A DNA stretch of 64,000 nt from Acetobacter suratthaniensis (GTDB taxonomy: Bacteria; Pseudomonadota; Alphaproteobacteria; Acetobacterales; Acetobacteraceae), in NCBI RefSeq assembly GCF_017377745.1, contig NZ_JAFVMG010000002.1:62001-126000 (forward strand), written 5' to 3'. Positions 19,602 through 22,838 of this stretch are shown here, piece by piece. The translations under genes and the position numbers were made by a program. The stretch's first letter is position 1; every line of letters starts with the position of its first letter. Under the pieces are notes generated by a model, which worked only from the letters and a program-made list of their open reading frames with translations, had not been told where the DNA came from and did no database searches.

Positions 19602-20567
19602 TTACCCAATCCAGTTCCAGCCGCGCAGGATATGATCCGCCAGCAGGCCGCAAAACAGGAAGAAAAGATATGCGAGTGAAAACCGGAACGAAATCCGTGC
19701 AGCCTTGTCGCCCGCAAGGCTGACACCCGTGGCATCCTGCGGTTCCAGCAGCACCCGCACGGCACAGGCGATAAAGCCCAGCCCCAGCACAAGCGCCGTA
19801 ACCGTATAAAGCCAGCCGCTCAGCCCAAGCACCGATGGCACAAGAGAAACCGCCAGCAATACCAGCGTGTAGCCAAAAATCTGCCAGCGCGTATGCCGCC
19901 CTCCCCGCACAACCGGCAGCATGGGAATCCCTGCGCGCCCGTAGTCCTTGCAGGCATAAAGCGACAGCGACCAGAAATGCGGCGGTGTCCAGAAAAACAC
20001 GATCCCGAACATGACCACCGGCATAACCGCCATATGGCCCGTAGCCGCAGCCCAGCCGATCATGGGGGGGAAAGCTCCCGCAGCCCCACCAATCACGATG
20101 TTCTGCGGTGTCGAACGCTTGAGCCACATCGTATAGATGACGGCATAGAAAAAGATGGAAAACGCCAGAATGCCCGCCGCCAGAGTGTTGGTGGCAATCC
20201 ACATCAGGCAGACAGACAGGCAGGACAGCCCGATACCATAGGCCAGAGCTTCGTCCTGCGGAATGCGCCCCCCCGGAATAGGGCGGGTAATGGTGCGCTG
20301 CATGATGGCATCAATATCGCGGTCAAACCACATATTGATGGCCCCTGCCGCCCCCGAGGCCAGACAGATGCAGAAAATGCTCACTGCCGCGACAAACGGG
20401 TTGAGATGGCCCGGTGCCATGATCATGCCCGCGGCACCCGTAAATACCACGAGAGAGATAACGCGGGGCTTAAGCAGCATCAGCCAGTCACGCGCCTGCG
20501 TGCCAACACGCGCCGTTTCAAAACGCACCCGGCGGGCGGGTTTATCCGTCAGTGCTGCTTCGCTCAT
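19602..20567 (-). CDS. ctaB: Protoheme IX farnesyltransferase (heme O synthase)
   Basis: This 321-residue polytopic enzyme transfers farnesyl to heme B, making heme O. The first Asp-rich motif is in NMWFDRDIDAIMQRT, followed by TRPIPGGRI; the second is in DYGRAGIPMLPVV. Between them is the family segment STPQNIVIGGAAGAFPPM. About eight or nine membrane helices are expected. Its ATG overlaps the stop of the oxidase-like gene by four bases. In acetic acid bacteria the main oxidase is a bo3 ubiquinol oxidase that needs heme O, so this gene probably remains functional even though its neighbour appears degenerate. The symbol cyoE would also fit. Confidence 0.94.
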   Translation of the reverse strand: MSEAALTDKPARRVRFETARVGTQARDWLMLLKPRVISLVVFTGAAGMIMAPGHLNPFVAAVSIFCICLASGAAGAINMWFDRDIDAIMQRTITRPIPGGRIPQDEALAYGIGLSCLSVCLMWIATNTLAAGILAFSIFFYAVIYTMWLKRSTPQNIVIGGAAGAFPPMIGWAAATGHMAVMPVVMFGIVFFWTPPHFWSLSLYACKDYGRAGIPMLPVVRGGRHTRWQIFGYTLVLLAVSLVPSVLGLSGWLYTVTALVLGLGFIACAVRVLLEPQDATGVSLAGDKAARISFRFSLAYLFFLFCGLLADHILRGWNWIG

Positions 20568-21880
20568 GCCCGCTCTCCCTTGCTGGTCTCACCGGACTGA
20601 ACCGGAACCAGCATGGTAGCACCCATCTGCTCCACAGAGCCGTAACGCAGGCCAAGCCCCGCGGCCAGAAGGAAACACAGCGCCGACAGACCGAACAGCG
20701 CGCTGCCCAGCGCCTGCTGGCCGGGCACAAAAACGAGGGCCGTGGCCACAACCGTCAGTACAAAATGCAGCCGCGCCAGACGCCTTGGGTACCAGAACCC
20801 GCCGGTCTGGCCACGCCACAGGTAAAAGCCACCACAAACAGCGTAGAGCGCACCAAGCTGGAGGGCGGAATGCAGGCCAGCCCCCTGCACAAGCTGGGCC
20901 ACCCAGCCAGCCGAGACCACGACCAGAAATCCCATGCCCCACAAAAGCGGCACACGCGGCGATACCCGGCTGCGCCACGTACCGGCCAGCCATAGCCCGG
21001 CAAGGCTGACAGCCGAAAACGTGCAGACTGCGAGCAGAATAGCCCCGATCCGCAGCGCACTGGCCTGTTCAGCCCCGGATGCCAGATCAGCCTTGGCCCA
21101 CGCAACAAGGCCAGTACCAGCCGTAGCCGCCATGACAAGAGCCACCGGTTTTTCGGAAAAGCGGCCGATACGCGCACTCATTTCAAACACGACACCAAAA
21201 CCGGCCAGCAGCACCACCAGCCCGATCGGCCCGGCAAAGGTTTCCACGCCTGCGGTTGTCGCAACGGGGAACAAACCGAAAGAGGTCAGCACCTGCCGTA
21301 CCAGATGGGCTGCAAAAACCGGAACCGCCAGCAGCAGCACAGCAGCCGACAGCATTTCCCCCCACACGAAAGGCGAAAAACTGGAACGCCCGGCGCTATC
21401 GGCCCGGCTGTCAAAAATCGTTACCAGAAGCGCCATGCACGCCAGCAGCGTCCCTACGCACCACAACAGGGTGGCGATAGTCGCCCCGGTTCCATGCAGA
21501 CCCGAACCTGACAGGGCCGCGCCCACTGTCAGCACCATGCCCGCCGTCACCAGCCCCAGACCGGACAGGTTCAGGCCATTGGCCAGCATACCTGCCCGCT
21601 GTAGCGCACCGGGCAACCACAGGGTACCGAATCCGCACACCATGGCAGGCACAACGACATAGAGCAGCATCAAGATCGGGTGGGCCTGCTCCAGCCCTGC
21701 CCAGACAGACCCCGAAGCCAGCGTACCCATACCCGCGAAAGCGGAAATCCCTCCGCCGACCAGTGCTGCAATCACAGCCAGAGCCAGCCATCCAGCTCCA
21801 AGTCCGGCCTCGACACCTGTTAGAAAACGGGTGGAGCCGTAGGCTTGGGCATGCGGGTTCTGAGCATGGACAACGGTCAT
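20564..21880 (-). CDS. Degenerate cytochrome c oxidase subunit I homologue lacking metal ligands
   Basis: This is a 438-residue polytopic protein with about 11-12 membrane helices; the ATG at 21880 has AGGAAG upstream. Segments align by eye with CtaD/Cox1: HPILMLLYVVVPAMVCGFG (67-85) with the helix II heme-ligand region; SPFVWGEMLSAAVLLLAVPV (169-188); LLAGFGVVFE (224-233); KPVALVMAATAGTGLVAWA (244-262); and RRLARLHFVLTVVATALVFV (366-385). H67 corresponds to one low-spin heme ligand. The HPEVY site of helix VI reads AGPIG, the His-His pair of helix VII reads KA, and the HFH motif of helix X is missing. It cannot form the usual binuclear centre. The open frame is intact. Coupled to ctaB by a four-base overlap. 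Its present function is unknown. Confidence 0.75.
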   Translation of the reverse strand: MTVVHAQNPHAQAYGSTRFLTGVEAGLGAGWLALAVIAALVGGGISAFAGMGTLASGSVWAGLEQAHPILMLLYVVVPAMVCGFGTLWLPGALQRAGMLANGLNLSGLGLVTAGMVLTVGAALSGSGLHGTGATIATLLWCVGTLLACMALLVTIFDSRADSAGRSSFSPFVWGEMLSAAVLLLAVPVFAAHLVRQVLTSFGLFPVATTAGVETFAGPIGLVVLLAGFGVVFEMSARIGRFSEKPVALVMAATAGTGLVAWAKADLASGAEQASALRIGAILLAVCTFSAVSLAGLWLAGTWRSRVSPRVPLLWGMGFLVVVSAGWVAQLVQGAGLHSALQLGALYAVCGGFYLWRGQTGGFWYPRRLARLHFVLTVVATALVFVPGQQALGSALFGLSALCFLLAAGLGLRYGSVEQMGATMLVPVQSGETSKGERA

Positions 21881-22079: not shown

Positions 22080-22094
22080 GGGGGGGGGGGGGGG
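22080..22094. repeat. Homopolymer of 15 G (plus strand)
   Basis: Fifteen consecutive G on the plus strand (C on the coding strand of the neighbours), then C and GGG. The tract begins six bases beyond the pmtA stop codon and about 200 bases upstream of the oxidase-like gene. Tracts of this length change size by slipped-strand mispairing and are also prone to sequencing error. Confidence 0.95.
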
Positions 22095-22100
22095 CGGGTA

Positions 22101-22838
22101 TCAGCCCGGCAGGTTTTCGAGCGTAACCAGCGTAAACAGCCCCATTGGCGGGACAGGCTGGATATAGGCGCGCGCGAGATCATTCGGAGGCAGCAGCGAT
22201 TCCATAGCAAAATCAGGATGCCAGCCGAGCGAGCGCGAGGCACGGGCCATGGCGTGCTCAACTGCACCGCGCACACCACCCGGTGCCAGAAAGTGGTTTA
22301 CGAACAGGATATAGCCGCCCGGACGGACAACCCTTTTCAGTTCGCACAGCAGCTTGCGCGGATGCGGCACAACAGAGGCCACGAACATTGCCACCGCAAT
22401 ATCGAAGGAATTATCTGCAAAGCGCGTAGCTTCAGCATCCATTTCCAGCAGGTCGCGCACGGTTGCAAGATTATCGCGCTGCACGCGTTCGCGCGCCTTG
22501 GCCAGCATGTCGCTTGAAAGATCAATGCCGGTAATGGCCTTGTCGGCCTTATAATGCGGCAGAGCCAGACCGGTACCCACACCCACTTCAAGCACATCCG
22601 TGCCGGGCAGGCCGTTTACGGCTTCGACCGCACGCAGGCGGCCAAAGCGCGAAATGCCACCGAAAGCCACGTCATACACATTGGCCCAGCGACGATAGGC
22701 GAGTTTGACGGCTTCCGCATCAAGCGCTGAGCGCGAGGGAGGAGGAACAGGTGCGCCTTCCCCGTCAGAGGGATACCCGTTCAGCATGTCGTGTACTTCC
22801 CCTGCCTGCCTGTTCGCCACTATTTCTTCAAGAGCCAC
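22101..22838 (-). CDS. pmtA: Phosphatidylethanolamine N-methyltransferase, PmtA type
   Basis: This 245-residue SAM-dependent methyltransferase most resembles the soluble PmtA enzymes that methylate phosphatidylethanolamine toward phosphatidylcholine, an abundant lipid in acetic acid bacteria. The SAM site is DVLEVGVGTGLALPHY, with TGIDLSSDML and MDAEATRF following. RRWANVYDVAFGG upstream and HFLAPGGV downstream fit PmtA. The GTG at 22838 has GAGG upstream; an ATG at 22787 is an alternative. A related class, ubiquinone/menaquinone methyltransferases, is less likely given the Tyr-Asp N-terminal motif. Confidence 0.82.
   Translation of the reverse strand: MALEEIVANRQAGEVHDMLNGYPSDGEGAPVPPPSRSALDAEAVKLAYRRWANVYDVAFGGISRFGRLRAVEAVNGLPGTDVLEVGVGTGLALPHYKADKAITGIDLSSDMLAKARERVQRDNLATVRDLLEMDAEATRFADNSFDIAVAMFVASVVPHPRKLLCELKRVVRPGGYILFVNHFLAPGGVRGAVEHAMARASRSLGWHPDFAMESLLPPNDLARAYIQPVPPMGLFTLVTLENLPG

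Follow-up and report, generated by a model that had tools for sequence, protein, structure and literature searches.

What could keep in place, directly beside the gene for heme O synthase, a cytochrome oxidase subunit I that has lost its site of oxygen chemistry? The question is raised by a stretch of 64,000 nucleotides of Acetobacter suratthaniensis (contig NZ_JAFVMG010000002.1, positions 62,001 to 126,000; hereafter the window), in which an earlier note had described a COX1 homologue without metal-binding residues and proposed that it might be maintained as a pseudoenzyme. The gene and the idea of a scaffold are both already in print. The accessible excerpt of PMC10715153 describes a deranged COX1-like protein of Acetobacter that is clustered with ctaB (citing Matsutani et al., 2014, BBA 1837:1810), states that all metal-binding residues are missing and suggests a structural role in stabilising CtaB. 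In the excerpts available from other papers, ctaD of A. pasteurianus SKU1108 (APT_01775) carries a locus tag adjacent to that of ctaB (PMC5158111), APA386B_609 is an incomplete cytochrome c oxidase that is probably inactive (PMC3751514), and a table footnote states that A. pasteurianus contains cytochrome c oxidase (PMC4596401). As far as these excerpts go, the gene is treated as an oxidase subunit, as an incomplete or probably inactive oxidase, or as a ligand-free protein.

We refer to the protein as CtaD', a name coined here for the COX1-derived pseudoenzyme encoded at 20564..21880. The features needed below, in coordinates of the window, are as follows.

20564..21880, minus strand: CtaD', COX1-derived pseudoenzyme of 438 residues with 12 predicted helices, in which the CuB and high-spin heme ligands are absent

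21680..21682, minus strand: codon of H67 in helix II, aligned with the low-spin heme ligand H94 of Paracoccus CtaD (coordinates from the frame start)

20870..20872, minus strand: codon of H337 in helix X, aligned with the low-spin heme ligand of the HFH motif (coordinates from the frame start)

21218..21232, minus strand: G217-P218-I219-G220-L221, the former HPEVY segment, with the CuB ligand, Glu and Tyr lost (coordinates computed)

21089..21094, minus strand: K263-A264, the former His-His CuB ligands by alignment (coordinates computed)

19602..20567, minus strand: ctaB/cyoE, heme O synthase of 321 residues (NF003349, 327 bits against a cut-off of 246)

22101..22838, minus strand: conserved upstream neighbour of CtaD', which we take to be a methyltransferase-like gene

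The intact frame of 438 residues that had been read from the sequence was recovered on the minus strand (window positions 21880-20564), together with its reported overlap with ctaB, which is 4 bp long (ATGA). Its kinship with COX1 also held in profile searches: Pfam COX1 (PF00115) matches residues 31-388 with an E-value of 5.3e-13 and 49 bits against a cut-off of 34.8, and the top sequence matches in the PDB are the COX1 proteins of Paracoccus and Rhodobacter, with E-values from 4e-16 (phmmer alignment). With the CtaD equivalog TIGR02891, CtaD' scores 53.1 bits, far under the cut-off of 670.75, which places it outside that equivalog. Among the intact named copies found, A. peroxydans has the nearest (84% identical for CtaD' and 95% for ctaB); A. 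papayae, whose CtaD' copy is broken, is equally near by its neighbours, and its ctaB is 96% identical.

A model of CtaD' built from 22 Acetobacter sequences contains 12 helices (pLDDT 74.2, pTM 0.77), and its best Foldseek matches are COX1 chains. The best row in VIA-align reaches a Z of 33.9, and the overlay on Paracoccus COX1 (1ar1), a comparison that the earlier note had suggested, returned the 12-helix COX1 fold with a Z of 32.0 and an rmsd of 3.3 over 396 aligned residues. Given that cbb3 oxidase (Z 30.9) and nitric oxide reductase (Z 29.9) are close behind 1ar1, the fold marks the superfamily and not a branch within it.

For comparisons across the family, 53 homologues were aligned, consisting of the window protein, 21 of the 22 named Acetobacter copies (A. 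papayae L040 was omitted for its broken frames), 20 loci (L055-L074) that we picked among the matches listed, and 11 inspected loci; the set takes in only part of all matches. Lengths of the segments between helices were taken from mid-helix to mid-helix with the helices of the model, and the medians of the 53 homologues were compared with those of six genuine CtaD of the same family (L075-L080). When the sides of the membrane are assigned by the topology that we assume for COX1, four cytoplasmic segments (2-3, 4-5, 8-9 and 10-11) match genuine CtaD in median length, and segment 6-7 is shorter by 3; the periplasmic segments 1-2, 3-4, 5-6, 9-10 and 11-12 are shorter by 7, 28, 14, 15 and 22, respectively, with segment 7-8 unchanged. 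The N-terminal end is 10.5 shorter and the C-terminal end 14 shorter. Subunit II sits on the periplasmic face of oxidase subunit I, which is the face trimmed in CtaD', and the cytoplasmic side, which is the face kept, is where one would expect heme O synthase to pick up heme.

The centre of oxygen chemistry is gone. The window protein has G217, K263 and A264 in place of the three CuB ligands, and G335 occupies the former position of the high-spin heme ligand. Across the family, none of the 53 homologues has His at the CuB position of HPEVY, the second His of the His-His pair is kept in five, and the high-spin ligand is His in one; the first His of the pair (H325 column) is kept in 13 by one aligner and in 18 by the other. 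Neither the active-site Tyr nor the K-channel Lys is present at the matching column in any of the 53. Hence, none of the residues that define a heme-copper oxygen reductase (three CuB His, high-spin His, Tyr and K-channel Lys) is found in the window protein, and a working oxidase was rejected on this loss of ligands, and also on the genome, in which one COX2 gene and no Cox11 were found. The genome holds one other COX1 gene, with the COX2 gene beside it, and a CtaA elsewhere. The surroundings of the heme are not intact either, given that the alignment shows gaps at the propionate arginines in 52 of the 53 homologues and at the Mg-site His in 47. We assume the names K-channel, Mg site and propionate arginines and the Paracoccus numbers, including H413 for the low-spin ligand of HFH, to be the customary ones, and H94 follows from the alignment. 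In six loci from other genera (L057, L060, L061, L063, L066 and L072), the Glu of HPEVY survives together with the first of the two paired His; both are missing from the window copy, and such partial retention suggests that the CuB ligands were lost stepwise.

The axial ligands of the low-spin heme, by contrast with those of CuB and the high-spin heme, have been kept. In both the phmmer and the multiple alignments, the HFH motif of helix X reads G335-L336-H337, with its second His, the low-spin ligand, in place; the other ligand is H67 of helix II, a residue that the earlier note had already aligned with CtaD. Both positions are His in 53/53 aligned homologues from 16 genus groups (multiple alignment), so that CtaD' has the pair of axial ligands by which the low-spin heme site of the COX1 superfamily is recognised. 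A separate HMM built from the six genuine CtaD only, and hence blind to the CtaD' family, recovered His at the first ligand in 51/51 aligned sequences and at the second in 50/51, the remaining one being a gap, with two of the 53 sequences not aligning at these ligands; a chance alignment of H67 and H337 was rejected on this ground. Of the 289 columns that are invariant in the six genuine CtaD, four (H67, W173, W261 and H337) are retained in all 53 homologues. The naive chance that both low-spin ligands would be among these four is 1.4e-4 (hypergeometric), a figure that ignores shared ancestry. The mean number of histidines per CtaD' protein is 7.7 in the 53 homologues, so His is not simply common.

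These alignments revise the earlier description in part. The description of a protein without metal-binding residues applies to CuB and the high-spin heme and fails for the low-spin heme site, and K263-A264 is indeed what remains of His-His. The replacement of HPEVY stands, but its register (AGPIG, 216-220) was off by one, the aligned segment being G217-P218-I219-G220-L221. The motif HFH, thought to be deleted between about residues 337 and 345, is present as G335-L336-H337, and the approximately 15 missing residues of the helix IX-X segment (28 residues in CtaD' vs. 43 in genuine CtaD) precede it. The retained bis-histidine pair also contradicts the published phrase "all metal-binding residues", as it appears in the accessible excerpt of PMC10715153.

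The gene is under purifying selection, as the dN/dS comparison proposed in the earlier note made clear. With 22 Acetobacter sequences (402 codons), omega of CtaD' is 0.10, approximately twice the 0.045 found for ctaB (21 sequences, 318 codons), and fixing omega at 1 changes the log-likelihood from -16747.5 to -18342.2, a cost of 1595 units. The values are 0.105 for CtaD' and 0.048 for ctaB with a transition ratio added, 0.117 and 0.046 with rate variation added, and 0.044-0.134 and 0.008-0.068 among 11 chosen close pairs. All 53 aligned homologues have open frames, and one further locus, that of A. papayae JCM 25143 (L040), which is one of the 22 named Acetobacter loci, carries a frameshifted copy. 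The neighbouring genes dpm, gt39 and pmbA are likewise only partially aligned in L040, so the broken CtaD' frames there are probably draft errors. The window copy thus has neither a broken frame nor an omega near 1, the marks of a pseudogene. Absence of a COX1 match and an omega of about 1 with frequent frameshifts, the two outcomes that the earlier note had named as speaking against itself, were both looked for and neither was found; its proposal of a maintained pseudoenzyme instead of decay is supported by the omega of 0.10, the open frames, the conserved locus with its ctaB overlap and the single clade formed by the family.

Regarding the clade, a protein tree places the 53 homologues together (SH-aLRT 100), nested within genuine CtaD and adjoining L079, with 35.4 changes per column across the clade; it is a quick tree with long branches, whose inner order is unsure. 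The order methyltransferase gene, CtaD' and ctaB is found in 22/22 named Acetobacter loci and in 20/20 of the loci L055-L074. A homologue of the next gene in the window, presumably tim44-like, is found in 20 of the former and 16 of the latter, the contig ending earlier in L048, L049 and L061. The overlap between CtaD' and ctaB is exactly 4 bp (ATGA) in all 21 named Acetobacter loci measured, where the in-frame ATG closest to the ctaD' stop codon was used as the start of ctaB. Behind genuine CtaD, too, ctaB comes next in 6/6 loci (L075-L080), in three of which the methyltransferase gene lies within the fetched stretch. Thus, the order is ancestral and adjacency to ctaB alone shows little; the shared gene order is best read as vertical descent of CtaD' from the aa3 gene without a change of locus.

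Searches of further genomes extended the family to small genomes. Forty genomes had no match in the first genome search; of the 20 of these that were listed, 17 were searched for ctaB and COX1, and G002, G007 and G050 only in a separate search. In 11 of the 16 loci inspected, a member of the CtaD' family with 403-423 residues lies upstream of ctaB. Four of these 11 genomes (G032, G046, G056 and G101) had given no match in the first genome search and seven had given weaker matches; most of the 11 are reduced (1.9-2.2 Mb), and CtaD' is open in them. Only a fragment, resembling genuine CtaD, is found in L126. G071 and G388, considered as possible genuine CtaD, turned out to be members of the CtaD' family.

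Among the 24 genomes searched for ctaB, 16 have it above cut-off. The other eight are five small genomes (G070, G210, G066, G116 and G029) and G034, G076 and G081; G034 is 82% complete and has no COX1 match, and G076 and G081 have a strong COX1 match each. In the five small genomes, neither ctaB nor CtaD' was found in the 8-9 kb around the upstream genes by a locus search that recovered the positive controls L112 and L114; genome-wide searches miss diverged CtaD' copies (e.g., G032 and G056), and absence in the five was tested at the locus. The upstream pair of the window, gshB and the methyltransferase gene, is still adjacent in all five (loci L168-L172), and in three the tim44-like gene follows, so that CtaD' and ctaB are missing together. 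It should be noted that CtaD' and ctaB are linked and that one deletion could remove both, which weakens their joint loss as evidence. These five genomes may serve as a model of life without heme O.

In G001 (L113) and G053 (L117), the methyltransferase gene adjoins ctaB with no CtaD' between them, and other COX1 genes are present. Their ctaB genes are outside the clade of 39 CtaD'-linked ctaB (support 92) and on long branches; outside that clade, ctaB can do without CtaD'. No ctaB without CtaD' occurs inside the 39-row clade, whose rows were chosen for carrying CtaD' and therefore do not constitute a survey of exceptions. In the ctaB tree, no end branches are longer than the three of L113, L117 and L131, as if ctaB of L113 and L117 had evolved faster once the neighbour was lost.

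We propose that CtaD' was once subunit I of the aa3 oxidase in the ancestry of the acetic acid bacteria and that its gene stayed in place when the aa3 oxidase was presumably replaced by the bo3 quinol oxidase. The oxygen chemistry (CuB, high-spin heme, Tyr and K-channel Lys) has been given up, as has much of the periplasmic face, to which subunit II would have docked; what has stayed is the fold of 12 helices, the length of most cytoplasmic loops and the bis-histidine site, putatively with one low-spin heme in it. In the membrane, CtaD' would act with heme O synthase, most probably by receiving or holding heme, either the substrate heme B or the product heme O, and would thereby stabilise CtaB or pass heme O toward CyoB. 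To judge from the ligands retained in the sequence, binding of one low-spin heme is quite probable; whether CtaD' works with heme O synthase is evenly balanced; and the whole, a maintained membrane heme protein working with heme O synthase, is our best explanation, with about an even chance of being right. It can be pictured as a protein halted after the first step of oxidase assembly, which might keep heme ready for CtaB or hand heme O onward. The occurrence of both low-spin ligands among four never-changing positions favours a role in holding heme over that of a bare scaffold. The loss of the propionate arginines indicates a looser heme site, which fits transfer and equally fits decay of the pocket. 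Counting against this explanation, G001 and G053 have ctaB without CtaD' at the locus, the omega of CtaD' is higher than that of ctaB, and Escherichia coli, to our knowledge, makes bo3 without any CtaD'-like protein. A more specific form is possible though rather doubtful: the oxidase core may have become, in a single conversion, a chaperone or relay that serves heme O synthase with one heme; it would take heme at the old low-spin site and hand on heme O or supply CtaB, with acetic acid bacteria dependent on it since the loss of aa3.

The conserved H67 and H337 could be structural instead of heme-binding, and CtaD' would then be a heme-free partner that stabilises CtaB, its two His being kept for the packing of helices. 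Such a partner is what the accessible excerpt of PMC10715153 suggests, and it would agree with the adjacency and overlap with ctaB, the joint absence of both genes from the five small genomes and the loss of the propionate arginines. Packing alone, however, predicts no such choice of survivors: the 4/289 columns include both axial ligands of a single heme, and of the remaining four metal-ligand His none is present in the window protein and each is missing from most of the 53 homologues. We consider a heme-free partner unlikely.

Still less likely is a low-spin cytochrome with an electron-transfer or sensing role of its own, for which the overlap with ctaB would be inherited operon order. The retained bis-histidine pair would suit such a cytochrome, as would the open CtaD' frames in genomes of 1.9-2.2 Mb and the ancestral order in which genuine CtaD precedes ctaB in 6/6 loci. 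The sole COX2 gene found in the genome, however, adjoins the other COX1 gene, and in the five small genomes the locus has lost CtaD' along with ctaB. Neutral decay of a dead oxidase gene, to which the lost catalytic residues and the broken frames of one named locus (L040, where partial alignment of dpm, gt39 and pmbA suggests draft errors) might point, was rejected as highly improbable by the omega test (0.10; pairs of 0.044-0.134; far worse fit with omega fixed at 1), the 53 open frames and two His that are unchanged over 35.4 changes per column.

A maintained heme protein allied with heme O synthase may be compared with several known proteins. The COX1-like genes of Acetobacter published before (PMC10715153, PMC5158111 and PMC3751514) belong, by their description in the available excerpts, to the same family and are likewise a lone subunit I; what differs here is that both low-spin ligands are found invariant over 16 genus groups and that evidence from selection, loops and the tree is at hand. 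In the excerpts accessible from the literature on the gene and on degenerate COX1, we found no mention of the low-spin pair, the spread over 16 genus groups, a selection test or the loop pattern, some of which may be contained in Matsutani et al. (2014). No phenotype of CtaD' was found among the papers listed on genetic screens, and the main text of PMC12041372 does not mention cytochromes. CtaD/COX1 of the aa3 oxidase (Paracoccus, 1AR1 and 1QLE) shares with CtaD' the 12-helix fold, the low-spin heme ligands and the genomic locus, whereas CtaD' is without CuB, the high-spin ligand, the active-site Tyr and the K-channel Lys and has trimmed periplasmic loops.

CyoB, subunit I of the bo3 ubiquinol oxidase, belongs to the same superfamily but keeps the active-site motifs; the other COX1-family protein of the host, which has 663 residues with HPEVY and HFH present and is encoded on a separate contig, is inferred to be CyoB from its size and its place beside the COX2 gene. 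Possible functional analogues are Surf1 and heme A synthase (CtaA/Cox15), membrane proteins that handle heme during oxidase assembly and whose folds we take to be unrelated to that of CtaD'. If CtaD' does hold one heme, it would be a natural experiment, an oxidase minus the reaction but with the first assembly step. On the same condition, CtaD' would also provide a handle on the route of heme O from synthase to oxidase and would be a candidate for a factor in the assembly or quality control of the bo3 oxidase, on which vinegar production depends.

When 190 genomes of the class were searched with a profile, 142 gave matches, and the best 20 loci were inspected for an independent case of such conversion. 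Seventeen of these have HPEVY, HFH and WAHHM, two belong to the CtaD' family (the window's own locus L148, and L156), and one is L149; no independent second case was found among these best 20 loci. L149 (G440), from another family of the class, encodes a divergent COX1 frame of 477 residues in which GHPELY and WGQH replace HPEVY and WAHH and HFH is intact; judging by these motifs, it may be another altered oxidase.

Finally, 15 consecutive G (poly-C when read on the gene strand) occupy positions 22080-22094 of the window, between the methyltransferase gene and ctaD' and approximately 200 bp ahead of the start of ctaD'. The matching interval in A. peroxydans (L033) and in four further loci examined lacks this tract, which is possibly phase-variable or error-prone.
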